From: Gammaproteobacteria bacterium | Lineage (GTDB): Bacteria; Pseudomonadota; Gammaproteobacteria; SZUA-229 | Direction of reading: 5' to 3' | Assembly (NCBI GenBank): GCA_029287435.1 | Contig: JARFRD010000195.1 | Span: 1 to 41,932 of the forward strand | Length of the DNA: 41,932 nucleotides | Shown here: piece after piece, positions 9,108 through 36,247 of the stretch | Numbering within the stretch: the stretch's first letter is position 1 | Layout of the letters: each line of letters opens with the position of its first letter | Made by a program: the position numbers and the translations under genes | Notes under the pieces: model-generated | Told to the model about the DNA's origin: nothing | Database searches by the model: none | Seen by the model: the letters and a program-made list of their open reading frames with translations, nothing else

Positions 9108-9134
9108 GATGGCGGTTGTTATCGCTAACACTTA

Positions 9135-12142: not shown

Positions 12143-12158
12143 GGTTCCACACACTGAC

Positions 12159-12425: not shown

Positions 12426-12429
12426 TCAG

Positions 12430-12681: not shown

Positions 12682-12683
12682 GC

Positions 12684-13052: not shown

Positions 13053-13789
13053 TCAAGCGCCTGTTTATATTCATGATGCTCTTACTGTTGGCATTGATAT
13101 TTTTCAAGCTCGCATCGAACTATACAGAGAACACGCAACTATCCAAACTCGGTCAATACTATGCTGAAAAAGGTCCACAGGAACTGGGCGCACCCAACCT
13201 GGTGACCGCCGTAGTAGTGACTTATCGCGGTCTCGATACACTCGGCGAAGTCACTGTCCTGTTTATTTCAGCAGCGGGTGTCGGCCTGTTATTACGTCGA
13301 ACTCGTCGCAAGCAAGATGATGAGGATCTTGAACAGGGCGATCGCGCTGAAGAAACCGCGGGTGTTCACAAACCCGCGAGTGAAATCGTCGAAACAGCTA
13401 CCGAACTATTATTACCCATGGTGATCCTGTTCGGCATCTATGTATTCCTGAACGGCCATCTGTCACCGGGCGGCGGATTTCAGGGAGGCGCCATCATCGC
13501 CTCCGGTACCATGTTTCTGCTACTGGCCCTGCCCGAATCACATATCAGTCGACTCTTGATCGCAACCATTGAGTCCCTGTCCGGATTTAGCTATGTGGTT
13601 GTGGGTGTACTCGGCGTGATCCTGGCCGGTGGCTTCCTCGACAACCGTATCATGGACCTGGGCACTTATGGCTCACTCTTCAGTGCCGGTGCCATTCCGT
13701 TGATATATGTGTTTGTCGGCCTCAAGGTTGGTTTCGAACTCAGCGCTGTACTCGACCGCTTTCGCAAAGAAGACACTGGCCCATTATGA
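13049..13789 (+). CDS. mnhB: MbhE-MnhB fused membrane subunit
   Basis: A 246-residue fusion. Residues 1 to about 90 resemble MbhE (one helix, then GAPNLVTAVVVTYRGLDTLGEVTVLFISAAGVGLLLRR, including the YRGxDTxGE motif). A charged linker (RRKQDDEDLEQGDRAEETAG) joins it to an MnhB/MbhF domain with LFGIYVFLNGHLSPGGGFQGGAIIASGTMFLLL. In archaeal Mbh these are separate proteins, and in Mrp the MbhE part is the tail of MrpA. The fusion keeps the NuoJ-like part and the B subunit at equal dosage. It overlaps mnhG and mnhC by 4 bp each. Confidence 0.9.
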   Translation: MIKRLFIFMMLLLLALIFFKLASNYTENTQLSKLGQYYAEKGPQELGAPNLVTAVVVTYRGLDTLGEVTVLFISAAGVGLLLRRTRRKQDDEDLEQGDRAEETAGVHKPASEIVETATELLLPMVILFGIYVFLNGHLSPGGGFQGGAIIASGTMFLLLALPESHISRLLIATIESLSGFSYVVVGVLGVILAGGFLDNRIMDLGTYGSLFSAGAIPLIYVFVGLKVGFELSAVLDRFRKEDTGPL

Positions 13790-14166
13790 GTATTATTGCT
13801 GACATTCCGGTTTCTCTCATCGTACTGTGCAGCGGCCTGGGTTTAATCCTGATCGGCCTCTGGGGCATGCTCACGCAGCGCAACATGATACGCATGATCG
13901 TCGGTTTTTCATTAACCGATACCGGTATCCACATGGTCATGGTATCCATTGGGTATGTGACTGGCGGGACGGCACCTATCATCAATGATGCAGTGCCGAT
14001 GGCAGAAGCGGCCAGCCGCATAGTCGACCCGGTACCCTCGGCACTGGTACTTACGGCTATTGTAATCGGCCTCGGTGTTACCGCCGTAATGCTGTCATTT
14101 GCTGTACGCATTTACAAAGCGCGCAAGACCTTGATGATTGATGAGTGCACGGAGTCAAAATGGTGA
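13786..14166 (+). CDS. mnhC: Mrp antiporter subunit C-like (NuoK-like) protein
   Basis: A 126-residue, three-helix protein homologous to complex I NuoK. It shows GLILIGLWGMLTQRNMIRMIVGFSLTDTGIHMVMVSIGYV, followed by DPVPSALVLTAIVIGLGVTAVMLSFAVRIYK, the MnhC signature (DPxPxALVLTAIVI). An aspartate (TDTG) stands where NuoK carries its conserved first glutamate. It overlaps the preceding gene by 4 bp and the following one by 7 bp. Confidence 0.93.
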   Translation: MSIIADIPVSLIVLCSGLGLILIGLWGMLTQRNMIRMIVGFSLTDTGIHMVMVSIGYVTGGTAPIINDAVPMAEAASRIVDPVPSALVLTAIVIGLGVTAVMLSFAVRIYKARKTLMIDECTESKW

Positions 14167-17100
14167 GCACACTCATTAATGATGTATTGCTGCAGCCACT
14201 GGGCATCTATGTCATCGCGCTGGGCGCCGGCTTCCTGGTACCCTTGTTCAACCGTGCACACCGCGGTTCAGCTATTCTGGTTTTCCTTGCCGCACTCGCC
14301 GCCATGGTCGCTATCTCCGGTATTAACCTGATTGCAATTATGAACGGCGCAGCGCCTGTCGATATCGAAACAGCCGGTATTGCCCCGCCTTTTTCTATCA
14401 ACCTGCGATTTGGCCTGTACGAAGGTGGCTTCGTACTTGCTGTGAACACTGCCGCAATACTCGCAGCCCTGCATTTACTGCCGTTACTAAAACAACATGC
14501 ATCCGCATTACTTCTCTACCTGATTCTGGTGATGGGTATCAACGGCATGATCATGACCCGCGACCTGTTCAACCTGTTCATCTTTATCGAAATCACTTCA
14601 ATCGCGACTTATGCATTAATCGGGATCGAGCGAACAGGTAGCGTGCTTGCCGCCGGTTTCAAATACATCATTGCCACCTCGATTGCATCATCATTTTTCC
14701 TGCTGGGTACAATTTTCATCTATTACCAGGCAGGTACATTGAATATTGATGACATCATTGCACATCGTCACCTTGTTCAAGGCCCTGTTGGCTTTATCGC
14801 ATGCCTGTTTGTGCTCACCAGCCTGTTAATCGAACTTAAACCCTATCCAGCTAATGGCTGGGGACTTGATGTTTACGAAACAGCACCCAGTGGCATTGCT
14901 TCGTTAATTTCTGTTGGCGTTTCAGCGGGTGTGTTTTTCGCCGTGTACAAGATACTGCCATTGATGGCTGATTACATGAACAGCATCGCTCTGATCGGCG
15001 GCATTACCTTCCTGGTCTCTAATGTGATCGGTTTAAAACAGATTAACGTCAAACGTCTGCTCGGTTATTCATCTATCGGACAGATGGGCCTGCTTACCCT
15101 GGCACTGGCATTACTCTTACAACTTGATGCCAGTTCTTTACTACCACTCATTGTTGGCGGCCTGTTCATAAACCACCTGCTGGCCAAGGCAGGCCTGTTC
15201 TGGCTGGCGGGCATTATCAATCGTTCAGATATTCATGACTGGTCAGCCATCGCACAACGGCCAGGCCTGTTGTTCTTACTCGGCACCCTGATAGCGGCAT
15301 TAATTGGACTGCCGCCCTTCCCGGGCTTCTGGGCCAAATGGCAACTGGTCATGCTGCTTGCAGACGGCGGAGAGTATGCCTGGATCAGCCTGCTACTGGT
15401 TGGCTCGCTACTTGAGGCGGCCTACCTGTTCCGCTGGTTCAGTCATGCACGTGCTGCAGATGAAAATCATGCGAACATCAGCGTGAATTTCTGGCAAACA
15501 ACGCCTGTATTTATCGCTGCTCTGCTTTTGTTCGGCACTGGTTATGGCATGTCGACTGTTATGCACTTCAATGCCACTTATATGTTCCTGCCAATTGTAG
15601 CCGGGTTTGTTTTATTGCTGATAGACGGTGTACATGGACGTCTCAAGGATCTGCCAATGCTGGTTATTGTTGCTGCCGGTGGCTACTGGCTGACACGTGA
15701 CCTCGAAGGCATTAACAGGTTATTCAGCTACCTGCTGATTGGTGGTGGCCTGCTGGTTAGCATCGCTGCGATGTACCGTAATGATGCGCGCAAGGGCTTT
15801 TATCCGTTACTGGCGATACTGCTGCTGTCACTGGCCACACTGTTGCATTCAAAAACCTCGCTGGAGTTTTTCTTCAGCTGGGAATTGATGACACTGAGTT
15901 CCTACCTGCTGGTAACACTGGGACGTGAAGGGGTAAAACCCGGACTCAGGTATCTGCTGTTTTCGCTCGGCTCAGCCTATTTCATCTTCACTGGATTTGC
16001 AGTGCATTACGCCGCTACTGGCAGCATCGAGATTGCATCACTCGGTGCCAGCGGCGACACGATGGGACTTGTGTTCAGCCTGCTGGCTATCGGCTTCGTT
16101 ATCAAGATGGGTGGTTTTGGTGTTCATGTCTGGCTACCAGATGCCTATGCCGAATCAAACGATGACTTCACCGCTATTCTTTCTGCCGTAATCAGTAAGG
16201 CAGGCGTCTTTGGTCTTATCATCGTTGCAGCCAACCTGGGTGTACGCTCTGATATAGGCCTGGACCCTGCCTACGTACTTGGCTGGATAGGCATACTCAC
16301 CGCGACCTTTGGTGCACTGATGGCGGTTTTCCAGGAAGACATCAAGCGCCTGGTTGCCTATTCCAGTATGGGCCAGCTCGGTTATATCGTCACCGGTATC
16401 GCACTGATGAGCCATCTTGGATGGGTATCGGCACTGTACATGACCGTAAATCACTTTTTATTTAAAGGCATTCTGTTCCTTTCTATTGCCGGTATCATAC
16501 TGCGCACCAATGAGCGACTGATGTACAAGATGGGTGGCCTGATCAAGAATATGCCGGTCACTTTTGTATTCACAATGATTGCAATCATTGCCATGTCCGG
16601 CGTACCACCCCTGACGGGTTTTGGTGGCAAGTGGATGCTGTTCAACGCATTAATGGACAAAGGCTGGCACTGGATTGCCGCCCTTGCGTTCTTCTCCAGC
16701 GCCGTCGCCTTCCTTTATATGTTCCGCCTGTTACAAACCGTATTTCTTGGCCAGCGCAAGCTTGAGCATCGTGAGTTACGCGAAGCACCAATCATTCTGC
16801 TGGTACCGCAGTTTGTAATGATCGTGGCCATAATGATTATCTCCGCTTATCCAAAACTGCTGCTTGATCCGCTTTCTGTCGCAATTGATCCCTGGCTGGC
16901 AAACACCCTGGTGTGGAATGGTGCAGCGCTTCAGACCCACTACGGATACTGGAATGCGCCAATGATAATGATGGTGGTCGGCGGCGTGTGGATGGTGCCT
17001 CTGATTCTGCTGTTGCTGATGTCGCTGACCTTCAGGATACAGAAAGTCGAGCAGTTCAATATCGTCTACGCAGCAGAACGCCCGAATCGCCCCGAAGACA

Positions 17101-17318
17101 CGCATTTTGCCTATAACTTTTTCGCACATTACGATCGCGCGCTTGGCTTCCTCGTCAGGCCGCGTGCGACGGCGTTCTGGAATACGGTCGTCGAATGGAG
17201 CCATACGCTGGGCTCTACACTGCGCGTCTTCTACAACGGCAACGGCCAGACCTACGCTCTGTTCATCCTGATTTACTTTGTCGCAATGTTTCTGCTCAAC
17301 GGAGGACTGGGTCAATGA
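14160..17318 (+). CDS. mnhD: Tandem double antiporter subunit (two NuoM/N/L-like domains)
   Basis: This 1052-residue membrane protein contains two complete proton-antiporter modules in tandem, each related to NuoL/M/N and MrpA/D. Module one (about 1-480) has the transmembrane-5 glutamate E144 (NLFIFIEITSIATYALIG), K227 (IELKPYPANGW) and INVKRLLGYSSIGQMG near 298-310. Module two (about 485-1000) has E575 (FFSWELMTLSSYLLV), K649 (IKMGGFGVHVWLPDAYAE) and EDIKRLVAYSSMGQLG near 727-740. Both also keep the His-x3-Lys segment (NHLLAK, NHFLFK), so both look competent for ion translocation. In known Mrp and Mbx systems the two antiporter subunits are separate genes. ATG 14160 is preferred over the upstream GTG at 14145 because CGGAG lies 5 bp before it. 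It overlaps the next gene by 4 bp. Confidence 0.92.
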   Translation: MVSTLINDVLLQPLGIYVIALGAGFLVPLFNRAHRGSAILVFLAALAAMVAISGINLIAIMNGAAPVDIETAGIAPPFSINLRFGLYEGGFVLAVNTAAILAALHLLPLLKQHASALLLYLILVMGINGMIMTRDLFNLFIFIEITSIATYALIGIERTGSVLAAGFKYIIATSIASSFFLLGTIFIYYQAGTLNIDDIIAHRHLVQGPVGFIACLFVLTSLLIELKPYPANGWGLDVYETAPSGIASLISVGVSAGVFFAVYKILPLMADYMNSIALIGGITFLVSNVIGLKQINVKRLLGYSSIGQMGLLTLALALLLQLDASSLLPLIVGGLFINHLLAKAGLFWLAGIINRSDIHDWSAIAQRPGLLFLLGTLIAALIGLPPFPGFWAKWQLVMLLADGGEYAWISLLLVGSLLEAAYLFRWFSHARAADENHANISVNFWQTTPVFIAALLLFGTGYGMSTVMHFNATYMFLPIVAGFVLLLIDGVHGRLKDLPMLVIVAAGGYWLTRDLEGINRLFSYLLIGGGLLVSIAAMYRNDARKGFYPLLAILLLSLATLLHSKTSLEFFFSWELMTLSSYLLVTLGREGVKPGLRYLLFSLGSAYFIFTGFAVHYAATGSIEIASLGASGDTMGLVFSLLAIGFVIKMGGFGVHVWLPDAYAESNDDFTAILSAVISKAGVFGLIIVAANLGVRSDIGLDPAYVLGWIGILTATFGALMAVFQEDIKRLVAYSSMGQLGYIVTGIALMSHLGWVSALYMTVNHFLFKGILFLSIAGIILRTNERLMYKMGGLIKNMPVTFVFTMIAIIAMSGVPPLTGFGGKWMLFNALMDKGWHWIAALAFFSSAVAFLYMFRLLQTVFLGQRKLEHRELREAPIILLVPQFVMIVAIMIISAYPKLLLDPLSVAIDPWLANTLVWNGAALQTHYGYWNAPMIMMVVGGVWMVPLILLLLMSLTFRIQKVEQFNIVYAAERPNRPEDTHFAYNFFAHYDRALGFLVRPRATAFWNTVVEWSHTLGSTLRVFYNGNGQTYALFILIYFVAMFLLNGGLGQ

Positions 17319-18244
17319 CTGACATCGACTGGTTGAGCAAGGCTGCGTATTTTTCGCTAACGCTGTTGATCGTGACTTTCTACGGCCTCCTGGTCACGGC
17401 GTTCATTTACCGCCTGATAGCCAAGGTGCAGGGCCGTATCGGTATTCCGTACCGTCAACCGTTCATCAACATCCTGAAAAACATTTTCAAACGCACCGCG
17501 ATCAGTCACGGCGTCATGTTTTATCTCGGACCGGTATTCCGCCTTGCCGGAGGCATCGGCACGCTGGCATTTATTCCGGTGATCTACGGCAGCGAGATGT
17601 TCTCCAATTTCAGCATGGCCGGCGATCTGTTCCTGGTCATCTATTTCATGTTCTTCGGTCAGCTTGGCATGGCCCTGGGGGCCGGTGAAAGCGGACATCC
17701 CTATAGCGCGATCGGTATTGCCCGAGGCCTGTCGCAGATGACGGCCTACGAGGTGCCGTTCGTGCTTGCTGTGATAGCGATCGTGATCCAGTACGACACG
17801 CTGTCGCTTACCGAGATTGTCGCTGCACAACAGGGTGGCTGGCAAAACTGGACACTGTTTACCAACTGGCTCGCCGTGCTCGCTGCGATGCTGGCCTTCC
17901 TTGGTATGACTGGCTATTCGCCGTTCGATATTTTTCTCGCCCCGCAGGAAATTCCGATCGGACCGCCGACTGAATTCCATAGCGCCTACCTGTCGATGCT
18001 GCAGACCAACCGCGCGCTGTTCGGCGCGACCAAGCTGATCCTGTTCATGAACCTGTTCTTCGGTGGTGCCACCGGCTGGATTGAGCTGATGATCAAGACA
18101 CTACTGATATACCTGGTCGCCATCATAGTGGGGGTGGCTTTTCCGCGCTTCCGTGTGGAGCAGGCAATCAGATTTTTCTTCAAGATCCCGACCCTGATCG
18201 GGATAATGGCAATTGTGTACGCACAGATGGTATTCGTATCATGA
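17315..18244 (+). CDS. nuoH: Complex-I-like membrane subunit NuoH/MbhM
   Basis: The 309-residue subunit anchors the peripheral arm to the membrane arm. Eight or so hydrophobic helices are visible. Signatures include YRLIAKVQGRIGIPYRQPFINILKNIFKR (the NuoH/HycD loop, with the RxGPxxxGxxGxLQ region altered to GRIGIPYRQP), GAGESGHPYSAIGIARGLSQMTAYEVPF, and SPFDIFLAPQEIPIGPPTEFHSAYLSML, where E-rich NuoH loops interact with the D subunit. It resembles the group 4 hydrogenase/Mbx type rather than respiratory NuoH. Start chosen at ATG 17315, overlapping the previous stop. Its stop codon is followed immediately by a repeat element. Confidence 0.93.
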   Translation: MTDIDWLSKAAYFSLTLLIVTFYGLLVTAFIYRLIAKVQGRIGIPYRQPFINILKNIFKRTAISHGVMFYLGPVFRLAGGIGTLAFIPVIYGSEMFSNFSMAGDLFLVIYFMFFGQLGMALGAGESGHPYSAIGIARGLSQMTAYEVPFVLAVIAIVIQYDTLSLTEIVAAQQGGWQNWTLFTNWLAVLAAMLAFLGMTGYSPFDIFLAPQEIPIGPPTEFHSAYLSMLQTNRALFGATKLILFMNLFFGGATGWIELMIKTLLIYLVAIIVGVAFPRFRVEQAIRFFFKIPTLIGIMAIVYAQMVFVS

Positions 18245-18256
18245 TTTATCAAAAAA

Positions 18257-18541
18257 GATTTGCCACAGAGACACAGAGAACACAGCGGTTTTCTCTATTT
18301 GTCATCTCGAGCAACCCCTTAGACGACGCTCAAGGCAGGCTCAGTGAGTCGAGAGGTCTGCACGTCGAACTAGCTGGATATCTCCCCATTCCGCGGTTAC
18401 CAATGACTTGCTGTAATTCGCCCTCCGGGCCGTCCTTCGTCCGTTCAATTTCGCTCCTTGCAAAATTAGTCAGTCGAGATGACATAACAATAAAACAACA
18501 ACTCCGCATGCTTTGCGCCTCTGCGGTGAAAATAAAATTTC
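18257..18541. repeat. MITE-like nested inverted-repeat element inside the operon
   Basis: The ~320-bp gap between nuoH and nuoB is the only large gap in this otherwise overlapping operon. Its outer ends are an imperfect inverted repeat: CCACAGAGACACAGAG at the left against CCGCAGAGGCGCAAAG on the opposite strand at the right (12 of 16, all mismatches transitions). Nested inside is a perfect 11-bp inverted repeat, TGTCATCTCGA at 18300-18310 and TCGAGATGACA at 18474-18484. It has no transposase. The 109-residue frame across it (18241-18570) is not a credible gene. Confidence 0.75.
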
Positions 18542-18563
18542 CAGATGAGTTGGAGGTTGCAGT

Positions 18564-19214
18564 ATGCTGAAAATCACCGGTGCAGACGACATTCCTGAAC
18601 AGGAAGACGTGCTGGCAAATGATGGCCTGTCTGAAGAAGACAGAAAGTTGTTCAGCAACGCACGTCCGAAGAAATACGAACCCTACCCGATCAAGGCAAT
18701 CGAGGACTTTGCCAATTGGGCGCGTGCGAACTCTTTATGGATACTCGGCTTTGGCACCGGCTGCTGTTCTATCGAACTGCGTCCGCTGATGACCTCGCGT
18801 TTCGACATCAGCCGCTTCGGTGTCGCCGGCCGTCCGACTCCTCGGCAGTCATCCGTATTCGTTATCGGCGGTTATGTCTCGGTGAAAACACTCAAACGCA
18901 TCATCCGCAGTTACGAACAGATGCAGGGTCCAAAGTTCGTTGTTGCTTTGGGGTCCTGCCCGGCAAACGGTGGCATGTACTTTGACAGCTATAACACGAT
19001 CAACCGTCTCGATCTGTATATACCGGTTGATATGTACATCAACGGCTGCATGCCGCGCCCGGAAGCCCTGCTGCACGGCATTATGGAACTACAGAATGAT
19101 ATCAAGGCGGGTAGCTGCGATGGTGCCAATCGCTATGTGGAAAACTTCGACTGGTACAAGGCCAACCAGAAAAAGATCATCAAAAACTGGAATATGCCTG
19201 ACTACAACTGGTGA
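18564..19214 (+). CDS. nuoB: Complex-I-like iron-sulfur subunit NuoB/MbxJ
   Basis: The 216-residue subunit holds the terminal [4Fe-4S] cluster (N2 position). All four ligands are present: the tandem cysteines C67 and C68 (GTGCCSIEL), C132 (LGSCPANGG) and C162 (NGCMPRPEALL). Residues 1-55 are a hydrophilic extension. The PDM-type loop of respiratory NuoB (RYDMERFG) is replaced by MTSRFDISRFGVAGRPTPRQSSVFVIGG. GGAG at 18551-18554 lies 9 bp before the ATG and just outside the repeat. It is the first gene of the peripheral-arm block. Confidence 0.94.
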   Translation: MLKITGADDIPEQEDVLANDGLSEEDRKLFSNARPKKYEPYPIKAIEDFANWARANSLWILGFGTGCCSIELRPLMTSRFDISRFGVAGRPTPRQSSVFVIGGYVSVKTLKRIIRSYEQMQGPKFVVALGSCPANGGMYFDSYNTINRLDLYIPVDMYINGCMPRPEALLHGIMELQNDIKAGSCDGANRYVENFDWYKANQKKIIKNWNMPDYNW

Positions 19215-19219
19215 GTGGA

Positions 19220-19771
19220 ATGGGTAACTTAACAAGCGCATTACTGGAACGACTGGAACGGGATTTCGATATCACCGATATCACCGAACGCCATGAGCGT
19301 CTAACGACATTCAAGGTGACCAGAGATCATGCCGAAACCCTGATCCGCGAACTGCGTGATCGCGAGAAATATACCCACCTGAACTTCATCACCTGTATCG
19401 ACTACATCGAGGATGGCGTTTTCTCTCTGGTATACATGCTGCAGAACTATGTCACCCACACCATGCTTGGTGTACATGTTGATATCGATCGCGACAAGGC
19501 CGAGATGACCTCGATCCACACCCTGTGGGCACAGGCGTGGACCTACCAGCGTGAACTGCGCGAAATGTACGGCATCAACTTTCCCGGCAGCCCGCGTCTC
19601 CACGAGGATTTCATGCTCGAAGGCTGGGATGATATGCCGCCGATGCGACGAGACTTCGACACCGCAGCCTATAGTACCGAGCATTTCGGTCATGTAGACC
19701 GCGAGAGTGAAGAACCCCGGCAATACATGAAAGTGCAGTTTTATCCAAACCGCGGAGGCGATGAGGAATGA
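19220..19771 (+). CDS. nuoC: Complex-I-like subunit NuoC/MbxK
   Basis: A 183-residue subunit of the 30-kDa family, which supports the D subunit in the peripheral arm. The signature WAQAWTYQRELREMYGINFPGSPRLHEDFMLEGWDDMPPMRRDF matches the E-R-E-x-x-D/E-M-(Y/F)-G-I-x-F-x-G-(H/S)-P-x-L motif. It is a stand-alone gene, not fused to nuoD. A GTG at 19211 that overlaps the nuoB stop is an alternative start; ATG 19220, with GAGTGGA just upstream, is preferred. It overlaps nuoD by 4 bp. Confidence 0.92.
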   Translation: MGNLTSALLERLERDFDITDITERHERLTTFKVTRDHAETLIRELRDREKYTHLNFITCIDYIEDGVFSLVYMLQNYVTHTMLGVHVDIDRDKAEMTSIHTLWAQAWTYQRELREMYGINFPGSPRLHEDFMLEGWDDMPPMRRDFDTAAYSTEHFGHVDRESEEPRQYMKVQFYPNRGGDEE

Positions 19772-20937
19772 CACAGTTGACCGGCCATTCCGCCTCACTG
19801 GATTTTTCCCAGCCCGAACCTGTCGACATGTCATCGGGCAAGTACGTCAAGCTGTGGCAGGGGCCGCAGCACCCGGGTATCACCGGCAACATGTCACTCG
19901 AGCTAACACTGGATGGGGACGAAATAATCGAGTGTAAAACCCATGTCGGTTACCTGCACCGCGCCTTCGAAAAACTGATGGAAGGTCGCAACTATATCCA
20001 GAACTTTACCGTTGTGTGCCGTATCGCCGTACCCGAACCGGCCTTCAACGAATACCTGTATGCCGAAGGACTTGAGCAGCTTAGCGGTATCGAAGCGCCT
20101 GAGCGCGCTCAGTGGATCCGCACGCTTAACCTGGAAATGATGCGCCTTGCCAGCTTCATGATGTGGATCGGGGGCCAGAGTGGTGCGTTCGGTCTGTACA
20201 CAGTTCCTAACTGGACCATTGCCTACCGCGACTATGTGCTCGACCTGTTCGAGGAAATGACCGGTGGACGCATCTACCACATGTATATGGTACCCGGTGG
20301 TGTGCGCTTCGATCTGCCGAAAGATTTCGACAAGCGCGTGAAAGAAGTCATGGACGGTGCCGAGAAGTTGCTCGACCAGGTCGAGCGCGTGATGTACAAC
20401 AACGTCGTTTTCAAGGCACGCTCCAAAGGCCTGGGTATTATTACACCGGAGATGGTTGACCCTTACGGTATCGTTGGGCCGAATGCGCGTGCCAGTGGAA
20501 TCAAACGTGACCTGCGCAAAGACGAACCTTATCTTGTTTACGATCAGCTCGATTTCGATATCATCAGCGGTACTGGCGCAGATGCGTATGAACGCGCCTA
20601 CCTGCGTTTGCAGGAGACACGCCAGTGCATCAGTCTGATACGCCAGTGCATGGATCGTATGCCTCGTTCCGGCCCGCTGCAGGCTGAGATGCCGAATGTA
20701 CTGCACTGGAAAATTCCGCCGGGTGAAACATACGTTAAAGCCGAGTGCACACGCGGTGAATATGGATACTTCATGGTGACCGATGGTACCGAGTACATAC
20801 GCCGTGTGTTCGTACGCGGGCCCAGTTACACGCATGCAATCGCGGTGATGGAAAAGCTCGCAGTAGGAACGAACATCGCCGATATCGCCGGCTTGATGGT
20901 TTCGTTACATACTTATCCGCCGGAGATTGAGCGATGA
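19768..20937 (+). CDS. nuoD: NuoD/MbxL-like subunit lacking NiFe and quinone-site residues
   Basis: A 389-residue member of the complex I 49-kDa/NiFe-hydrogenase large-subunit family. GPQHPGITGNMSLELTLDGDEI aligns with the canonical GPQHPxxHG opening, but the second His is Thr. The first hydrogenase motif (RxCGxC) is reduced to one cysteine, C84 (TVVCRIAVPEPAFNEY), and the DxxCxxC motif at the C-terminus is replaced by SLHTYPPEIER, so NiFe ligands are absent. The DY segment carrying the quinone-site tyrosine of NuoD is not recognisable at the matching position either. This pattern resembles Mbx/Mbs-type subunits of Thermococcales, which are not hydrogenases. Overlaps neighbours by 4 bp each side. 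The electron acceptor or donor at this site is unknown. Confidence 0.9.
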   Translation: MTQLTGHSASLDFSQPEPVDMSSGKYVKLWQGPQHPGITGNMSLELTLDGDEIIECKTHVGYLHRAFEKLMEGRNYIQNFTVVCRIAVPEPAFNEYLYAEGLEQLSGIEAPERAQWIRTLNLEMMRLASFMMWIGGQSGAFGLYTVPNWTIAYRDYVLDLFEEMTGGRIYHMYMVPGGVRFDLPKDFDKRVKEVMDGAEKLLDQVERVMYNNVVFKARSKGLGIITPEMVDPYGIVGPNARASGIKRDLRKDEPYLVYDQLDFDIISGTGADAYERAYLRLQETRQCISLIRQCMDRMPRSGPLQAEMPNVLHWKIPPGETYVKAECTRGEYGYFMVTDGTEYIRRVFVRGPSYTHAIAVMEKLAVGTNIADIAGLMVSLHTYPPEIER

Positions 20938-22742
20938 ACCTGAAAGACCTGTTATCGCCCTTCTACGTCTGGCAGCGCGCGTTCGAGAAGCCTTACACCT
21001 CGATGCGACCGATTGAGGAGCGTCCGGGTTCGCCTTCCTATCGCGGTTTTCACATCAATGTCGCTGATACCTGTGTCGGCTGCGGTTGTTGCCACACAAT
21101 CTGTCAGAACGACGCCATCGACATGGTGCCGGTAGAAAAATATAGCGGCAACAAGGGCGACAGCGGCCTGCGCCCGCGTTTCGATTACGGACGCTGCTGC
21201 TGGTGTGCGCTCTGCGTAGACATGTGCACGGCTGGCTCTTTACGTTTGAGCAACGAATACATCTGGACCTCGCGCGAACCTGCCGATTTCATGTTTGTTG
21301 CCGGCGTCGAAGAAAAGCACTGGCAGGATAATGAACTGGGTTACCGCCGCGAAAAATCCTACCACCTTTATCCTCCCAGGCGTATCGAGATGGAAATGCT
21401 CTCACCCGATGAAAGCATTGAAGGCTTTGATGAAGTGGTCAAAGGTTATGATGTCGAACAGGCAAAAAAGGAAGCTGACCGCTGTATTGAATGCGGTATG
21501 TGTGTGGCGACCTGCCCAGCACACATGGATGTGCCTGATTACATCAAGAGCATTCGCGACGGTGATTACGATGAGGGACTGCGCCTGATGTACCGCACGA
21601 ATCCTTTCCCCGCAACCTGTGGCCGCATCTGTACCCGCCGCTGTGAATCGGTGTGCCCGGTTGGCCTTCAGGGTGATTCGATTGCAATACGCTGGCTCAA
21701 GCGTCATATCGTCGACCAGGTTGATGCAAAGGACTACGCGCGCATCCTCAATGACAACATCGAAGAAAATGGCAAGCAGGTTGCCGTCATAGGCGCCGGC
21801 CCGGGCGGTTTGAGCGCGGCCTATTACCTGCGCAAGAAAGGTTATGAAGTCTCTGTTTACGAGGCGCAGGACAAAGCCGGCGGCATGCTGCGCTACGGTG
21901 TACCAGGTTACCGATTACCCGACAGCGGACTCGACAAGGATATTAATTATATCGTTTCACTCGGTGTTGAGATCAGGAACAATACCCGTATAGGCACAGA
22001 CATTAGCTTCGAATCCCTGTTGAATGATTATGACGCTGTATTCCTGTCGACTGGATTATCGGTACCGTCGAGTATGCGTATAAACGGCGAAGATCATCCA
22101 CGCGTACTCTCCGGTTTGCAGGTGCTGGCTGATGCTGCCAGTGGACGTGACCCGGGCATAGGCAACAAGGTGGCTGTCATCGGCGGCGGCAACGTTGCGA
22201 TGGATGCATCACGCGTATCACGGCGCCTCGGTGCAGACGTCACTATTCTGTACCGCCGGCGTATTTCCGACATGCCGGCAGACATTGAAGAAATACACGA
22301 AGCGCAGGAAGAAGCCTGTACCATCGTGACACAAGCGATACCCGTTGAAATAATGGATGCCCCGGACGAAAAACAGGTCATAATCAAATGGGGTGAAGCA
22401 GAGATGGTGCAGGATCCAAAAGGTGGTCGTCCACGCCCGGTACTTCAGGAAGACCGTATGCATGAAGATACCTATGATTGCATTATTTCTGCTATTGGTC
22501 AGGGCAGCAATCTCGACTACCTGTCGAAAGAAGTGCAGGAGCAGCTGGCTATTGAATGGGGCAGATTCACACCAGGCGAGTACCAGCATACCTCCCTGGA
22601 AAAAGTTTTTGTTGGTGGCGATGTCGCCAATCGTACCGCTGATGCAATAAGCGCTATTGAAGATGGTCACCACGCAGCACGCGGCATCGACCGCTTTCTG
22701 AGACCAGAAATGTATACAGAATTAGACCAGGAGATAAGTTGA
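20934..22742 (+). CDS. NuoI-like ferredoxin fused to NfnB/GltD-like NAD(P)H oxidoreductase
   Basis: A 602-residue fusion that appears to combine the complex-I iron-sulfur subunit with its own flavin input module. Residues 47-57 (CVGCGCCHTIC) and 88-98 (CCWCALCVDMC) are the two NuoI-type [4Fe-4S] motifs, unusual in lacking the trailing proline. Then come GltD/NfnB-type clusters: 184-194 (CIECGMCVATC-P) and C229, C233, C237, C241. An FAD motif GAGPGG lies at 287-292 and an NAD(P) motif GGGNVAMDA at 417-425, followed by YRRRISDMPA (440-449), the arginine-rich form typical of NADPH binding. A final GD-A-x-G-like flavin motif (FVGGDVANRTADAISAIEDG) closes the fold. It replaces NuoEFG in this operon. 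It overlaps the nuoD-like gene by 4 bp. Likely reaction: NAD(P)H and ferredoxin or another partner exchange electrons at the peripheral arm. Confidence 0.93.
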   Translation: MNLKDLLSPFYVWQRAFEKPYTSMRPIEERPGSPSYRGFHINVADTCVGCGCCHTICQNDAIDMVPVEKYSGNKGDSGLRPRFDYGRCCWCALCVDMCTAGSLRLSNEYIWTSREPADFMFVAGVEEKHWQDNELGYRREKSYHLYPPRRIEMEMLSPDESIEGFDEVVKGYDVEQAKKEADRCIECGMCVATCPAHMDVPDYIKSIRDGDYDEGLRLMYRTNPFPATCGRICTRRCESVCPVGLQGDSIAIRWLKRHIVDQVDAKDYARILNDNIEENGKQVAVIGAGPGGLSAAYYLRKKGYEVSVYEAQDKAGGMLRYGVPGYRLPDSGLDKDINYIVSLGVEIRNNTRIGTDISFESLLNDYDAVFLSTGLSVPSSMRINGEDHPRVLSGLQVLADAASGRDPGIGNKVAVIGGGNVAMDASRVSRRLGADVTILYRRRISDMPADIEEIHEAQEEACTIVTQAIPVEIMDAPDEKQVIIKWGEAEMVQDPKGGRPRPVLQEDRMHEDTYDCIISAIGQGSNLDYLSKEVQEQLAIEWGRFTPGEYQHTSLEKVFVGGDVANRTADAISAIEDGHHAARGIDRFLRPEMYTELDQEIS

Positions 22743-22743: not shown

Positions 22744-23190
22744 ATGAATACTATTGATGAAATACTGGACTATGCCATTGACCAGGAACAACAGGCAGCA
22801 GATTTTTATACCAGTCTCGCCGGGCGCGCAGAAAAAGCTGGCATGAAAGAAGTGTTACTCGAATTTGCTGAAGAAGAAAAGCGACACAAGGAACGCTTGC
22901 TCGCAGTTAAAACCGGTGAACATGAACTTACGCCAGAACAGGAGGTGCTGGACTTGAAAATATCAGACTACCTGGTAGAAGTTGATGAAAGCGATGATAT
23001 CTCTTACCAGGATGCTCTTATTATTGCCATGAAACGAGAGCGTGCAGCCTATGAACTCTACAGCGATATGGCCGAGAAAGTGCCTGAAAGCCAGCTCAAA
23101 GAAGTGCTGGCTGGACTCGCCAAGGAAGAAGCCAAGCACAAGTTGTTTTTTGAGTCAGAATACGATGACCGCGTGCTGGTAGATAATTGA
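22744..23190 (+). CDS. Rubrerythrin/ferritin-like diiron protein
   Basis: A 148-residue four-helix diiron protein of the rubrerythrin/erythrin type without a rubredoxin domain. Iron-binding patterns are EQQAADFYTSLA, FAEEEKRHKERLL (EExxH), KRERAAYELY and LAKEEAKHKLFFE (ExxxH). Such proteins reduce peroxide or scavenge oxygen in anaerobic or microaerobic cells. It begins 1 bp after the fusion gene, with GGAGATAAG serving as ribosome binding site, so it is the last gene of the ion-pump operon and probably protects its oxygen-sensitive clusters (inference). Confidence 0.88.
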   Translation: MNTIDEILDYAIDQEQQAADFYTSLAGRAEKAGMKEVLLEFAEEEKRHKERLLAVKTGEHELTPEQEVLDLKISDYLVEVDESDDISYQDALIIAMKRERAAYELYSDMAEKVPESQLKEVLAGLAKEEAKHKLFFESEYDDRVLVDN

Positions 23191-23276: not shown

Positions 23277-23951
23277 TCAGTGACCTGGTTCATATGCAGC
23301 CCTGTCGACAAACCAGACATCGGGATCAACCATACTTACCGGCAATGACAGCCCATTTCGTATGTTTACCAGGGCCTCGCTTTTATTCGCTCCAGTTGCA
23401 ATTACAATACATATTTCGGCATTCTTTAAGGTAGCCAAACTCAAGGAAATACGTTCAGTCGGTGGCTTGGGGGCATTGTATACCGGAACAACACTGCTTG
23501 AGTCATTTAACGCGGGGTTTTCAGGAAACAGGCTGGCGGTATGACCGTCTTCGCCCATGCCCAGTACCACGATATCTATACCGGCCGTAGCATTTATCCG
23601 CTCGGCAAATCGCTCTGCACCCAGCTCAGGGCCCAGTTCAGCAGGTATTGGGTGAAAATTCACAGTACCGTCTTTTCTGCCATGGAATAACTTATTGAGA
23701 ATCATCGTGTCATTGCGTTCGGCGTGCCCTGCCGGGTAACAGCGCTCATCTCCCGGGTACCAATGGACATGCTTCCACGGCAAAGGCATATCTGCAAGCA
23801 ATTCAAGGCAACGCGCCGGCGTCGTTCCTCCAGGCAAGACGACGTGACACTCCCCTTTCATATCGACGCAATTTTTTATCTGGTTGAAAATGTAGGCGGC
23901 CGCTTCCCTGGCAACGGCTTCTGCATCCGCCAGAACCTTGAAGTTAGTCAT
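23277..23951 (-). CDS. pgl: 6-phosphogluconolactonase
   Basis: Pgl hydrolyses 6-phosphogluconolactone to 6-phosphogluconate, the second step of the oxidative pentose phosphate pathway. HVVLPGGTTPARCLELLADMPLPWKHVHWYPGDERC contains the family motifs (LxGGxTP, W--DER), with ILNKLFHGRK and VLGMGEDGHTASLFPENPAL following. ATG 23951 is preferred: it overlaps the end of zwf by 8 bp and gives 224 residues, starting MTNFKVLADAEAVAREAA. A longer frame to 23978 exists but extends into zwf without added homology. Confidence 0.95.
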   Translation of the reverse strand: MTNFKVLADAEAVAREAAAYIFNQIKNCVDMKGECHVVLPGGTTPARCLELLADMPLPWKHVHWYPGDERCYPAGHAERNDTMILNKLFHGRKDGTVNFHPIPAELGPELGAERFAERINATAGIDIVVLGMGEDGHTASLFPENPALNDSSSVVPVYNAPKPPTERISLSLATLKNAEICIVIATGANKSEALVNIRNGLSLPVSMVDPDVWFVDRAAYEPGH

Positions 23952-25440
23952 AGATTGACGGTTTATGCCAGCCACCAACGCAATCGCTAGTCAACTCATC
24001 CATATCAGGAATATCCCAGGTTCCGGCACGGTATCGTTCAATTGAAACCCTGTCCTTCCAGGCATCCAGTATCGGCTCGACAATCGACCAGGATTCCTCT
24101 ATTTCGTCTGAGCGTGAAAACAGGGTGCGGTCACCGGTAAGCACATCGTGCATCAAAATCTCATACGCATCCGCCACCTCTTCTGCATCAGCGGCATAAG
24201 GTGCGTGCATAACCATTTCTTCATTGTCCGTGGTTAAGCCAGGTTTCTTGGCATTTAAACGCAACACGATACCTCCCTCCGGTTGCAGTCTGAATACCAG
24301 CGCATTAGCTGCAGGAACAGAAGCATGACTATCGAATAGATTGAAAGGAGGCTTGCGAAAACGAATCATTACTTCCGACACTTTTGATTTCATACGCTTG
24401 CCTGACCACAGAATGAATGGCACACCCTGCCATCGCCAGTTGTCTATATAAAACCGTACAGCAGCAAATGTTTCTGTTGCTGAATCAGGCGAAACGTTTT
24501 CCTCTGCAACGTAAGCTGAAACCTGTTCATTGTTAATGGTTCCCGAAGCATACTGTGCCGAGACCGTTTGTTTTTTTATCTGTTCAGGTTCAAAACGGCG
24601 TACAGCTCTGAGTACCTTCATTTTCTCATCACGTACGGCATCTGCAGTAAACTCAACAGGTGGCTCCATCGCAACCAGAGTCATCATCTGCATGAGATGA
24701 CTTTGTATCATGTCGCGTAAGGCTCCAGAATGATCGTAGTATTTGGCACGGTATTCAATACCGAGCGTCTCCGATGCTGAAATCTGTATATGGTCAATGT
24801 AATTACGATTCCATAGAGGCTCCATGATGCTATTGGCAAATCGATAGACCAGTAGATTCTGTACACTTTCCTTACCAAGATAATGATCTATTCTATATAT
24901 CTGGTTCTCATCAAACACGGCTTGAAGCTCTGTGTTCAGTGCAGAGGCGGTCTCGAGGTCGCTGCCAAATGGCTTTTCAATTACCAGTCGACGGTATCCC
25001 TCATCTTCGTGAACCAGGCCTGCATTACGCAAGCCCTTGGCCACCTTGCCATACCATGCTGGTGGTATGGCACAGTAGAACATTGCGTTTTTTGTACCAC
25101 CGAGTGTTTCCAGTGACTCAGCAAGTCGCTGATACATTGTTTCGTCATCCAGATCTCCATCAACGATCTTCAGACATGATGAGAATCTTTGCCACTTGTC
25201 ATCATCCATTTCAATGTGTGGTGAAAATTCCTGTAGTCCGGCACGCAACTGGTCAAGCCATTCCTGCCGGCTACGATTACGCAGAACACCCAGAATACGA
25301 CTATCGCTATGCACCAAACCACAACACATCATACGAACGAGAGCTGGTATGAGCTTACGTTTTGACAAGTCCCCGGCAGCGCCAAAGATAACAATATTGC
25401 TCGGATCGGCTGTTTGTATTGCCTGATCAGCAGTTACCAT
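23944..25440 (-). CDS. zwf: Glucose-6-phosphate 1-dehydrogenase
   Basis: Zwf oxidises glucose 6-phosphate to 6-phosphogluconolactone with NAD(P)+. The N-terminal dinucleotide motif reads FGAAGDLSKRKLIPAL and the active-site signature RIDHYLGKESVQNLLVYRFAN contains the catalytic His and Lys. Length is 498 residues from ATG 25440, preferred over 25458 because GAGG lies upstream at reasonable spacing and the shorter form matches the family. It forms a two-gene operon with pgl. Upstream, a ~210-bp region separates it from a divergent small gene. Confidence 0.96.
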   Translation of the reverse strand: MVTADQAIQTADPSNIVIFGAAGDLSKRKLIPALVRMMCCGLVHSDSRILGVLRNRSRQEWLDQLRAGLQEFSPHIEMDDDKWQRFSSCLKIVDGDLDDETMYQRLAESLETLGGTKNAMFYCAIPPAWYGKVAKGLRNAGLVHEDEGYRRLVIEKPFGSDLETASALNTELQAVFDENQIYRIDHYLGKESVQNLLVYRFANSIMEPLWNRNYIDHIQISASETLGIEYRAKYYDHSGALRDMIQSHLMQMMTLVAMEPPVEFTADAVRDEKMKVLRAVRRFEPEQIKKQTVSAQYASGTINNEQVSAYVAEENVSPDSATETFAAVRFYIDNWRWQGVPFILWSGKRMKSKVSEVMIRFRKPPFNLFDSHASVPAANALVFRLQPEGGIVLRLNAKKPGLTTDNEEMVMHAPYAADAEEVADAYEILMHDVLTGDRTLFSRSDEIEESWSIVEPILDAWKDRVSIERYRAGTWDIPDMDELTSDCVGGWHKPSIYD

Positions 25441-25650
25441 TCTGATAAAACCTCGCATGGCTTTAGTGGTGGATATTTAAAAAGAGAAATCCTGTATGTC
25501 TCGGCTCGCTTATTGTCGAGCAAGGATAAAGTGATAGTCTGGAGCATCCAGATATCCTTACTGGATAGATCATACATATTGGCAAGTATCTTGCAGAATA
25601 TTGCGGTAATTCTCAATCATCATGTTAAGCAAATACTTAACGGGAGGAGG

Positions 25651-26950: not shown

Positions 26951-29434
26951 TCAGGATTGCTTTAGTTTCCATATATCCCTGTTATATTCCTGCATGGTTC
27001 TGTCCGTTGAAAAGAAGCCGCTGTTGGCGGTATTCAATACACTCATCTTCAGCCATTTTTCCCTGTCGCGATAAGTCGCTGCTGCCATATCCTGGGCATC
27101 AACATAACTGCGAAAATCTGCCAGGGTCAGCCATGGATCATGCGGGCTTTTCACTGAGCCAATGATGTCGTCAAATATATGTGGTTCAAACAGGTTGAAG
27201 TGCCCGCTTTCGAGAAGCTGTATTACTGCTTTAAGGTCTTCATCATTATCGATAATCGCCTGCGGGTCATACTGGTGGCGTGTCGCTTCGACTTCATCAG
27301 CCTTCAGACCAAACAGGAAGAAGTTTTCTTCACCAACGGCCTCGAGTATTTCGATATTGGCGCCATCATAAGTTCCAATCGTAACCGCGCCGTTCATCAT
27401 AAACTTCATATTACCCGTACCCGATGCCTCCTTGCCTGCTGTTGACACCTGTTCAGACAGATCCGTTCCCGGGCAGATGATTTCCATCTTGGAAACATTG
27501 TAGTCTGGCAGGAACGCAACCTTGAGTCTGTCACCAACATCCGGATCATTATTGATTACATCCGCAACATTATTTACCAGCTTGATAATCAGCTTGGCCA
27601 TATGATACCCAGGTGCAGCTTTACCACCGATTAGAACAGCGCGGTTTGTCCATTCATCCACATCATCCTGTTTGATTCGCCAGTAACAATGGATAACATG
27701 AAGAATATTCAACAGTTGTCTTTTGTATTCATGAATACGCTTGACCTGAACATCGAACATGGAATTCACATCAAACACAACACCGCAGGCATCAACCACA
27801 AGGTCAGCGAGTCGCTGCTTGTTTGCTCGTTTAACATCATCCCATTGTTTAAAAAATGCCTGGTCATTATTGGCAACAAATGATTCCAGGCTCTTGATCT
27901 TACTAAGGTCAGATACCCATTCGTCACCAATTTTGTCGTTTAACAACGCACTCAGCTCCGGATTGGCATAGGCAATCCAGCGGCGTGGCGTAACGCCGTT
28001 TGTCTTGTTATTAAATTTTTCCGGCCAGAGTTCATAAAAATCCCTGAATAACCCTTCGCACAGTAATTTTGAATGTAATGCAGCAACACCGTTCACGGAA
28101 AAGCTGCCCACTATCGCAAGATAAGCCATGCGTACACGCTTCTGCCCATCCTCTGCGATTAATGACATTCTTGCCTGGCGCTCACTATCACCAGGCCATT
28201 TCATCGAGATATCATGCAGGAAGAGTTCATTGATATGAAATATGATTTCCATCAAACGCGGCAACAGACGTTGCATCATATCCACCGGCCATGTTTCTAA
28301 CGCTTCAGGTAATAGCGTATGATTGGTATAAGCCATTGTACTGGTGGTTATCTTCCATGCTTCATCCCATGTAAGACGCTTGTCGTCCATCAGAATACGC
28401 ATCAATTCTGCAACAGCAATGGTCGGATGCGTATCGTTCATCTGAAACACATTAAATTCGGCGAAACAACTGTAATCATCAGCGTGCGTACGTTCCCACA
28501 GGCGCATTACATCCTTGATACTTGCTGATGCGAGAAAATACTGTTGCTTGAGACGCAGCTCTTTACCCGATTCACTAGCGTCATTCGGATAGAGCACCGT
28601 GGTGATATGCTCGGCATCGTTCTTTGCTTCGACGGCTTCCGAGTAACTGCCAGCATTAAAATCAGCCAGGCTGAACAACTCTGTTGCGGTAGCCTTCCAC
28701 AACCTCAGCGTATTGACGTTTTGATTGCGATAACCGGAGATTGGCATATCATAAGGGATAGCAATCACATCCTCTGTATCGACCCAGCGTACATGTTCTA
28801 CACCTTCCTGGTCATGAAAATGTTCGGTACGGCCACCGAAATGGATCGTCTGTTCAAACTCGGGACGTGCTACTTCCCAGGGGTTACCATCACGCAACCA
28901 GTGATCCGGCTCTTCCACCTGAAAGCCCTTTTCGATTAACTGTCGGAACATGCCGTACTCATAACGAATCCCGTAGCCGATGACAGGCAAGTCAAGACTC
29001 GCACAACTATCCATGAAACAGGCAGCCAGACGACCAAGGCCGCCATTACCCAGGCCCGCGTCCGGTTCTTCGTCAATCACATCTTCAAGCTCGACTGAAA
29101 AATCCAGAAGCGCATCGTGTGTCTGATCCTTGATATTGAGGTTGAGTAGATGATTACCCAACGCGCGACCGATAAGAAATTCCAGTGACAGGTAGTAGGC
29201 TTTGCGCGTATCAGGCTGGTTATAGCGCTGCCAGGTCTGATGCCAGGGATACATAATGCGATCACGTACCGTGAGTGCCAGAGCCTCGTACAGATAATAG
29301 GGCACAAAACCCATAAAATGGCCGAGATGGTTTCTAAGGTAGCGATTAAAGCCTTCTGCCATAGAACGCGTGTCAGCAGGCAACGGTTCGATCTCGGAGA
29401 TTGTATTGTCTTCTATCCAGTCTTTATCGTTCAT
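26951..29434 (-). CDS. glgP: Glycogen (maltodextrin) phosphorylase
   Basis: GlgP releases glucose 1-phosphate from the non-reducing ends of glycogen using phosphate and PLP. The 827 residues show the family's N-terminal YYLSLEFLIGRALGNHLLNL and GNGGLGRLAACFMDSCASL, the VKRIHEYKRQLLNILH region, and EASGTGNMKFMMNGAVTIGTYDGANIEI, in which the lysine after NM binds PLP. Length is typical. It is the last gene of the glycogen operon, overlapping glgA by 4 bp. The product feeds zwf or glycolysis after phosphoglucomutase, which is not in the window. Confidence 0.97.
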   Translation of the reverse strand: MNDKDWIEDNTISEIEPLPADTRSMAEGFNRYLRNHLGHFMGFVPYYLYEALALTVRDRIMYPWHQTWQRYNQPDTRKAYYLSLEFLIGRALGNHLLNLNIKDQTHDALLDFSVELEDVIDEEPDAGLGNGGLGRLAACFMDSCASLDLPVIGYGIRYEYGMFRQLIEKGFQVEEPDHWLRDGNPWEVARPEFEQTIHFGGRTEHFHDQEGVEHVRWVDTEDVIAIPYDMPISGYRNQNVNTLRLWKATATELFSLADFNAGSYSEAVEAKNDAEHITTVLYPNDASESGKELRLKQQYFLASASIKDVMRLWERTHADDYSCFAEFNVFQMNDTHPTIAVAELMRILMDDKRLTWDEAWKITTSTMAYTNHTLLPEALETWPVDMMQRLLPRLMEIIFHINELFLHDISMKWPGDSERQARMSLIAEDGQKRVRMAYLAIVGSFSVNGVAALHSKLLCEGLFRDFYELWPEKFNNKTNGVTPRRWIAYANPELSALLNDKIGDEWVSDLSKIKSLESFVANNDQAFFKQWDDVKRANKQRLADLVVDACGVVFDVNSMFDVQVKRIHEYKRQLLNILHVIHCYWRIKQDDVDEWTNRAVLIGGKAAPGYHMAKLIIKLVNNVADVINNDPDVGDRLKVAFLPDYNVSKMEIICPGTDLSEQVSTAGKEASGTGNMKFMMNGAVTIGTYDGANIEILEAVGEENFFLFGLKADEVEATRHQYDPQAIIDNDEDLKAVIQLLESGHFNLFEPHIFDDIIGSVKSPHDPWLTLADFRSYVDAQDMAAATYRDREKWLKMSVLNTANSGFFSTDRTMQEYNRDIWKLKQS

Positions 29435-30918
29435 GCTGTTTTCCTGGTACCACTGCGAGAGGATTTATAAAGTTTACGATAAGCCTGAGCACTGGAATCC
29501 CAACCGAGATCCTGCATCATGGCGCTGATAATCACCTGCTCCCAAAGTGCGCTTTGCTTATAGAGTTCAAGCGCATGCGAAATGGAAACTAACAGCGAGC
29601 CGGCATCATCCGCCTCCATGACAAAACCTGTCGCTGTCTGGTCCTGCAGCGATGCGAATGTGACATTAACGACAGTATCCGTGAGCCCGCCCGTATTGGT
29701 CACAATCGGTAACGCTCCGTAACGCAGGCTATACATCTGGTTCAAACCACAGGGCTCAAACATGGAAGGCATCAGGAACAGGTCACAGCCGGCCTCGATC
29801 TGATGGGCGAGCTCTTCTGAATAACCAATATGAATATGCAGACGATCAGGCCACTCGTCCATCAACTGTATTAATTGAGCTTCATAGTGTTCCTGTCCTG
29901 CACCCAGGATGACGATACTTACATCGGTTTTCTCAAACAGCTCAGGCAAGATCGAAATAATCAGGTCAATGCCTTTCTGCTCGACCAGCCGACCGACAAA
30001 ACCCAGCACAGGTACCTGCTTCTTTGACAACCCGGTGCGCTCGAGCAAGTCCATCTTGTTCGCACGTTTGGCCGCCATCAGGTTGTTTTCATAAGTATAG
30101 TTTTGCTTGATATACGGATCTGTTTCAGGATTCCAGATCTCAAGATCAATACCGTTGAGTATGCCGCTGAATTTGTCACCGAGACTACTCAATACGCCTT
30201 CAAAGCGATTTCCATATTTCTCGGTACAGATCTCCTTCGCATAATTGGGGCTGACTGTTGTTACAGCATCAGAAAACACCAGGCCCGCTTTAAGCATGGA
30301 AAAACCATCATAGAATTCGATGTAGTCCGGTGACCACCATTCTGCGGGAAGGCTCAGCCGGGTAAATTCGTCATAAGAAAAATGACCATCATACGCAAGG
30401 TTATGAATGGTAAATACAGTCGCTGGCGCGTTACCCATCTTGCTCAGAAATGCAGGAACCAGTCCCGTTTGCCAGTCATTACTATGCACGACTTCAGGTA
30501 CCCAGGCCTTACCGCCTTTCAAACCCGGCAGGAACTTCGTCAACAAGGCTACGGCCCGGCTGAACACAACATAACGCTCGGCATTATCCGGCCAGACGAT
30601 ACCGTTAGCATCCACGTAGGGATTGCCTGCACGGTCATACAGTGACGGTATATCGATCAGGTAGACAACGACATCCTGTTTTTTATCATCAACCTGCAAT
30701 ATCCGCATCTTGTGGCGCGTGTTCGCCCCCTGCACGTCCAGGGTTCCAAGCTCAACCACATTGACGCCTTGTTCTAGTATCGATCGATACGCGGGCAGAA
30801 CAATGCGAGCATCATCACCGAGTTTTTGTAATGCTGCTGGCAACGCATGCACAACATCCCCTAAACCACCGGTTTTTATATAGGGGAAGGCTTCGCTTGC
30901 AGCAAAAAGAATATTCAT
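29431..30918 (-). CDS. glgA: Glycogen synthase (ADP-glucose)
   Basis: GlgA adds glucose from ADP-glucose to the growing alpha-1,4 chain. The 495-residue GT5 protein begins MNILFAASEAFPYIKTGGLGDVVHALPAAL with the substrate-binding KTGG at 15-18. FTIHNLAYDGHF and the C-terminal MPSMFEPCGLNQMYSLRYGALPIVTNTGGLTDTV carry the catalytic glutamate and nucleotide-binding region of the GT-B fold. It overlaps glgB and glgP by 4 bp each (ATGA), indicating tight translational coupling. Confidence 0.97.
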   Translation of the reverse strand: MNILFAASEAFPYIKTGGLGDVVHALPAALQKLGDDARIVLPAYRSILEQGVNVVELGTLDVQGANTRHKMRILQVDDKKQDVVVYLIDIPSLYDRAGNPYVDANGIVWPDNAERYVVFSRAVALLTKFLPGLKGGKAWVPEVVHSNDWQTGLVPAFLSKMGNAPATVFTIHNLAYDGHFSYDEFTRLSLPAEWWSPDYIEFYDGFSMLKAGLVFSDAVTTVSPNYAKEICTEKYGNRFEGVLSSLGDKFSGILNGIDLEIWNPETDPYIKQNYTYENNLMAAKRANKMDLLERTGLSKKQVPVLGFVGRLVEQKGIDLIISILPELFEKTDVSIVILGAGQEHYEAQLIQLMDEWPDRLHIHIGYSEELAHQIEAGCDLFLMPSMFEPCGLNQMYSLRYGALPIVTNTGGLTDTVVNVTFASLQDQTATGFVMEADDAGSLLVSISHALELYKQSALWEQVIISAMMQDLGWDSSAQAYRKLYKSSRSGTRKTA

Positions 30919-36240: not shown

Positions 36241-36247
36241 TTAGCTC

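Follow-up and report, generated by a model that had tools for sequence, protein, structure and literature searches.

The membrane-bound sulfane reductase (MBS, formerly Mbx) of Pyrococcus furiosus (PDB accession no. 6u8y) takes up electrons from ferredoxin through a small subunit, MbsN, and passes them to a terminal cluster that is held only by C28, C93, and C123 of MbsJ, leaving a free iron that is the catalytic site. So far, MBS has been regarded as an enzyme that belongs to hyperthermophiles and depends on ferredoxin, and in the papers we found the Mbx of Thermotoga maritima, modeled as ferredoxin dependent (PMC9431562), and the “putative Mrp-Mbx complex” of Endoriftia are read by analogy with it. 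Here, we analyze a stretch of 41,932 nucleotides from a gammaproteobacterium of the SZUA-229 lineage (contig JARFRD010000195.1; the whole stretch is referred to as the window), which carries an operon of this kind in which one polypeptide combines the NuoI-like subunit with an entire NfnL/GltD-type module. The complex belongs to the MBS/Mbx kind as a widespread and partly known variant, with an NfnL-type NADPH port on its NuoI-like subunit, and is apparently uncharacterized: we found no published GltD subunit or NADPH module on an Mbx/MBS-type complex within the open-licence literature, which is weak evidence of absence.

The fusion protein, the presumed NADPH-input subunit, is encoded by a single open frame on the forward strand (positions 20934 to 22742) that runs from ATG to stop and translates into 602 amino acids. 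A sequence-only reading of the window had proposed that one chain unites a NuoI-type subunit with a whole NfnB/GltD-type module, and the open reading frame (ORF), Pfam, and NCBIfam agree with it. Pfam places Fer4_7 at residues 46 to 101, Fer4_20 at 163 to 266, and Pyr_redox_2 at 282 to 578, all above the curated cutoffs, while the NuoI-type models of NCBIfam cover the first 120 residues and its GltD-type models the remainder. The N-terminal domain (residues 1 to 140 with an approximate boundary; positions 20934 to 21353) is recognized by NuoI and FpoI models, and its best solved relative is the MBS chain 6u8y_N. The fusion is not new to databases: its best family, PRK13984 (NF010590, “putative oxidoreductase”), has the same length and architecture and spans residues 2 to 591 (590 residues, 683 bits, E value of 3.6e-205). 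The score is below the curated cutoff of 946, which places the window protein on a more distant branch of the same architecture, and all 44 fusion relatives scanned match this family. Annotation pipelines thus already know the architecture (PRK13984) but assign it no function.

All six cysteine, FAD, and NADP motifs picked out from the sequence alone are present where they had been placed. The two NuoI-type [4Fe-4S] motifs, C47/C50/C53/C57 (positions 21072 to 21104) and C88/C91/C94/C98 (21195 to 21227), and the first GltD-type motif, C184/C187/C190/C194 (21483 to 21515), are invariant in 81 relatives, and so is the second GltD-type motif, C229/C233/C237/C241 (21618 to 21656), save for C229 (80 C and one X). 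Both NuoI-type motifs had been said to lack their usual trailing prolines, which the alignment confirms: position 58 is proline in only one of the 81 rows, and position 99 is proline in 42 and threonine in 37. They are followed by the FAD dinucleotide-binding motif GxGPGG (residues 287 to 292; positions 21792 to 21809), supported by the sequence, Pfam, and the alignment of relatives, and by the NADP(H) site GGGN...YRRR (residues 417 to 443; positions 22182 to 22262). The YRRR element is found in 71 of the 81 relatives; in the other 10 (L005, L013, L082, L083, L085, and L089 to L093), which the drawn tree places on its deeper branches, it is replaced, for example, by SLESED or ALEPGD, and these proteins may be NADH-preferring versions.

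The C-terminal module is predicted to hold the whole NfnL fold, with its two [4Fe-4S] clusters, FAD, and NADP site. An AlphaFold2 model of the fusion, based on an alignment of 44 sequences, reached a mean predicted local distance difference test score (pLDDT) of 86.9 and a predicted template modeling score of 0.82, and its residues 144 to 591 superimpose on NfnL (5jfc_L) with a Z score of 47.2 and a root mean square deviation of 1.8 Å over 438 residues, which delimits the module at residues 144 to 594 (positions 21363 to 22715). The next structural matches are the large subunits of NfnABC and StnC, GltD, and DPD. This comparison covered residues 157 to 597 well, and the NuoI part rests on sequence; residues 1 to 185 folded alone without an alignment gave a pLDDT of 31, and that model was not used for any claim. 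NfnL/NfnB (5jca, 5jfc, and 4ylf) shares the entire fold but differs in having an NfnS partner, in not being fused to the NuoI domain of a membrane complex, and in one cluster ligand: position 256 (21699 to 21701), which is Glu in NfnL according to the alignments to solved chains, is Lys in all 81 relatives. Its counterpart in StnC, set by an ungapped offset from residue 189 to residue 103 with which the printed 9bov alignment agrees as well, is Lys170, a ligand of the cluster beside the FAD whose replacement by Ala or Cys cripples the enzyme (PMC10482914). The large subunits of StnC and NfnABC (8oh5, 9bov, and 9n5u) are similar to our fusion in that a GltD module is wired to Fe-S domains of the complex I type, although the partners of StnC are soluble and NuoG- and HydB-like, whereas here they form a membrane pump. 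In AegA and YgfT from Escherichia coli, a GltD module likewise comes after a ferredoxin-type domain, but both proteins presumably differ in their HydN-like N terminus and in the absence of an operon for a membrane complex. At its end, the mbx locus of T. maritima carries TM1217, apparently annotated as the beta subunit of a glutamate synthase.

The chain is not a frameshift artifact, since the same fused product is encoded twice in this genome, again in close relatives, and at 80 loci of other genomes. The second copy is a whole operon on another contig of the same genome (C187, positions 1 to 20000, locus L009) with a fusion 79% identical to that of the window, and three relatives from the genus and family hold the fusion at 75 to 81% identity. 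The 80 further loci, mostly from metagenome bins, were retained when genomes of bacteria and archaea were scanned, and they span Gammaproteobacteria, Spirochaetota, Cloacimonadota, Bacteroidota, Chlorobiota, Neomarinimicrobiota, Aminicenantes, and one member of Campylobacterota, so that the operon is conserved across at least eight phyla. A joining of two genes by frameshift or misassembly, which the sequence-only reading had named as one of the outcomes that would overturn it, was ruled out on these grounds. Nearly all loci with sufficient upstream DNA share one gene order: Mrp subunits, the double antiporter-like gene, NuoH, NuoB, NuoC, NuoD, the fusion, and often rubrerythrin. The fusion of one Arenicellales bin (L017) is nearly identical to that of the second copy.

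Next, we compared the NuoB-like, NuoD-like, and NuoI-like parts against all solved chains, and each was closest to MBS. The NuoD/MbsL-like subunit (positions 19768 to 20937, forward strand, as is the rest of the operon) scored 317 bits against MBS (6u8y_L), compared to 228 against complex I and 134 against the membrane-bound hydrogenase (MBH). The corresponding scores were 212 (6u8y_J), 141, and 98 bits for the NuoB/MbsJ-like subunit (18564 to 19214) and 66 (6u8y_N) and 39 bits against MBS and complex I, respectively, for the NuoI domain. In complex I, H38 and Y87 of Nqo4 hold the quinone. These residues align with T39 and V88 of the NuoD-like subunit, of which the former is kept in 83 of 85 relatives and the latter in all 85; the solved MBS sequence lacks the His and Tyr as well, and these are also the two residues to which the MBS paper draws attention when it sets the chamber of MBS against complex I (PMC7684303). 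The four-Cys NiFe site is absent, as it is from MBS; the two cysteines that MbsL retains, C85 and C385, correspond to Ala and Tyr here. No NuoE, NuoF, or NuoG, the NADH module of complex I, was found among the Pfam-annotated ORFs of the operon. Membership in complex I was rejected on the basis of the comparisons with solved chains and the missing quinone-site residues, and by sequence the host is a complex of the MBS/Mbx type. The earlier proposal of a nicotinamide/flavin site on a complex-I-like wire therefore needs amending: the site does sit on the Fe-S wire of an enzyme from the complex I superfamily, but this enzyme is of the MBS/Mbx type, without the quinone-site His and Tyr.

The three MBS ligands of the terminal cluster, MbsJ C28, C93, and C123, correspond to C67, C132, and C162 of the NuoB-like subunit and are invariant in 70 relatives. 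Of these 70, 65 have Gly at position 68, giving most fusion operons the three-Cys terminal cluster of MBS, and the family as a whole appears, from its sequences, to fit the MBS mechanism. The window is different: its NuoB-like subunit features an extra tandem cysteine, C68, and this complex-I-like C67-C68 pair (positions 18762 to 18767) occurs only in the window, in the second copy, and in L015, L016, and L017, a lineage that also carries an I/V-to-A exchange at position 134.

The operon supplies an Mrp-type membrane arm with two antiporter-like units, as in MBS, except that here the two are joined in one chain. It starts with genes for MnhE-like (positions 11630 to 12142; Pfam MNHE), MrpF-like (12159 to 12425, start uncertain; Pfam MrpF_PhaF), MbhD-like (12364 to 12681), MnhG-like (12684 to 13052), MbhE plus MnhB-like (13049 to 13789), and MnhC/NuoK-like (13786 to 14166) proteins, the last four also assigned by Pfam. 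They are followed by the double-length antiporter-like protein (14145 to 17318), a chain of 1,057 amino acids with a NuoN-like and a NuoM-like part according to NCBIfam and two stretches of Pfam Proton_antipo_M, and by the NuoH/MbsM-like membrane anchor (17315 to 18244; Pfam NADHdh; 302 to 312 amino acids in relatives), whose start we inferred at an ATG overlapping the stop of the preceding gene. The NuoC/MbsK-like gene (19211 to 19771; Pfam Complex1_30kDa) lies between those for the NuoB-like and NuoD-like subunits. The last gene, also found after the fusion gene in many relatives, encodes a rubrerythrin-like protein of 148 residues (22744 to 23190) with no obvious rubredoxin domain. Between NuoH and NuoB, a segment (18250 to 18565) with a 109-amino-acid ORF stretch is absent from related operons and recurs in pieces at 16 other places of the genome; it is an insertion of a dispersed repeat within the operon.

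The explanation that we favor, with somewhat better than even confidence, is that the complex is an ion-pumping NADPH:sulfane oxidoreductase, that is, an MBS whose ferredoxin input has been replaced or supplemented by NADPH. NADPH would reduce the FAD of the C-terminal module, from where electrons would travel one at a time through the two GltD-type [4Fe-4S] clusters, first the FAD-proximal one with its Lys ligand and then the distal one, and on through the pair in the fused NuoI/MbsN domain until they reached the NuoB terminal cluster. The most likely reaction at that site would be the reduction of a sulfane substrate, either polysulfide or some other S-S compound, and it would drive proton or sodium movement in the Mrp-like arm. 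The NADPH module points to a donor other than the ferredoxin used by MBS. Ferredoxin entry at the NuoI domain may persist. While the subunit makeup, the cluster ligands, the lack of quinone and NiFe sites, the flavin and NADP motifs, and the conservation of the operon can be read from the sequence, we infer the electron path joining the two halves, its direction, the sulfur acceptor, and pumping.

In the window organism, glycogen would probably supply the NADPH by way of the oxidative pentose phosphate pathway. The operon is flanked on the reverse strand by genes for 6-phosphogluconolactonase and glucose-6-phosphate dehydrogenase (pgl and zwf; positions 23277 to 25458) on one side and for 6-phosphogluconate dehydrogenase (gnd; 9872 to 11323) on the other, all of them NADPH sources, and positions 26951 to 38526 harbor glycogen phosphorylase, starch synthase, branching enzyme, 4-alpha-glucanotransferase, a GH57 enzyme, an ADP-glucose pyrophosphorylase-type nucleotidyl transferase, and glucokinase. 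NADPH-making neighbors recur in two arrangements, as zwf or gnd flank five other gammaproteobacterial loci: gnd lies upstream in L014 and L029, whereas zwf and gnd lie downstream in L023 to L025. This neighborhood fits a flow from glycogen to NADPH to sulfur. Upstream of the operon, we also found a phosphoenolpyruvate synthase/pyruvate phosphate dikinase and a three-subunit 2-oxoacid:ferredoxin oxidoreductase with its own GltD-Fer4 fusion subunit (positions 4612 to 9107, forward strand). This oxidoreductase adjoins both copies of the pump operon, and its GltD-Fer4 fusion, which has Glu and not Lys at the proximal-cluster position, is possibly a second GltD-based NADPH port. In Endoriftia, the putative Mrp-Mbx complex shares coexpression neighbors with genes of the reductive tricarboxylic acid (TCA) cycle and was placed in the reductive TCA module, with reduction of S0 assigned by analogy, and ppdk, a pyruvate:ferredoxin oxidoreductase (PFOR), and malQ are upregulated under oxygen limitation (PMC11636981).

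The link to sulfur is also visible across genomes. The fusion occurs in 13 of 274 gammaproteobacterial genomes, from 13 different families, and dsrA is found in all 13, compared to 90 of the 274 overall (hypergeometric P value of 2.8e-7, for genomes that are not independent); one of the 13 holds a partial dsrA below the curated cutoff, and the strict count gives a P value of 5.8e-6. We regard this as support and not proof, because the genomes are nonindependent and PFOR is enriched for dsrA too.

Three points weigh against an NADPH:sulfane oxidoreductase. The gap in potential between NADPH and polysulfide is small. As for the co-occurrence, dsrA is present in 31 of the 48 genomes positive for PFOR, a general marker of anaerobes, and within these genomes the association between the fusion and dsrA is weak (7 of 7; P value of 0.036). 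Finally, the fourth, tandem cysteine suggests that the terminal cluster of the window lineage may be fully ligated, which makes the acceptor less certain and leaves the window copy without direct support for the MBS mechanism. It is tempting to speculate that this lineage stands as an enzyme of its own between MBS and complex I, in which an ion pump fed by NADPH pairs a substrate chamber like that of MBS with a complex-I-like, fully ligated tandem-Cys terminal cluster, hence with an acceptor or coupling mode described for neither; we consider this possible but rather doubtful.

The same tandem cysteine resembles complex I and could speak for a true complex I variant working as an NADPH:quinone oxidoreductase, at least in the window lineage. 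However, the replacement of the quinone-site His and Tyr and the proximity of all three hydrophilic subunits to MBS argue against it, as do parts of a canonical complex I (NuoF and NuoI) elsewhere in the window's genome, and we deem this reading very improbable. Alternatively, the complex might be a ferredoxin:NADP+ oxidoreductase: as in MBS, the NuoI domain would be the docking site of ferredoxin, with the GltD module taking or giving the electrons and yielding NADPH from ferredoxin or, driven by the ion gradient, reduced ferredoxin for pyruvate or 2-oxoglutarate synthase. Such a role was formerly proposed for Mbx, as a passage in PMC6349859 cites, and would suit the 2-oxoacid:ferredoxin oxidoreductase upstream of both operon copies and the need of reductive TCA cycle bacteria for reduced ferredoxin. 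Yet electrons that ferredoxin passes to the flavin of the GltD module would never visit the NuoB terminal cluster, the presumed point of coupling to the pump in this superfamily, and the neighboring oxidoreductase has a GltD module of its own, which leaves this explanation unlikely in our view. We give similarly little, if not slightly less, credence to an enzyme running in reverse, in which the terminal cluster oxidizes sulfide or persulfide and the electrons are lifted to NADP+ by the ion gradient, providing sulfur oxidizers with NADPH for CO2 fixation. The chemistry is near equilibrium and the gammaproteobacterial carriers, the host included, hold dsrA as sulfur oxidizers do, but the neighboring pentose phosphate and glycogen genes already yield NADPH, and many carriers belong to phyla of fermenters (Spirochaetota and Cloacimonadota).

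The last alternative is Nfn-type bifurcation, which the sequence-only reading had raised, or confurcation at the GltD flavin; it draws on the completeness of the NfnL fold and on R327, the counterpart of the Arg that contacts the flavin N5 in NfnL, which is kept in all 81 relatives. However, this Arg does not discriminate bifurcating from nonbifurcating enzymes, since StnC has the same one, along with the same Lys, and its authors conclude that the GltD module passes NADPH electrons on without bifurcation (PMC10482914). Given that no NfnS-type second-flavin partner was found among the ORFs annotated in the operon and around it, and that the Glu ligand of NfnL is invariably replaced by Lys256, as in StnC, bifurcation is not supported; we consider it unlikely, indeed scarcely credible.

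If an NADPH-fed sulfane reductase is indeed what these operons encode, many bacterial mesophiles, among them sulfur-storing Gammaproteobacteria and symbionts, would own an NADPH-fed MBS, and the oxygen-free, energy-conserving metabolism of glycogen plus sulfur would gain a concrete enzyme. The most interesting point is the tandem cysteine of the window lineage. Because the number of cysteines at the terminal cluster varies naturally among close relatives, the mechanisms of MBS and complex I could be compared directly, and if the lineage does form a distinct enzyme, its close relatives without the extra cysteine would provide the natural control.

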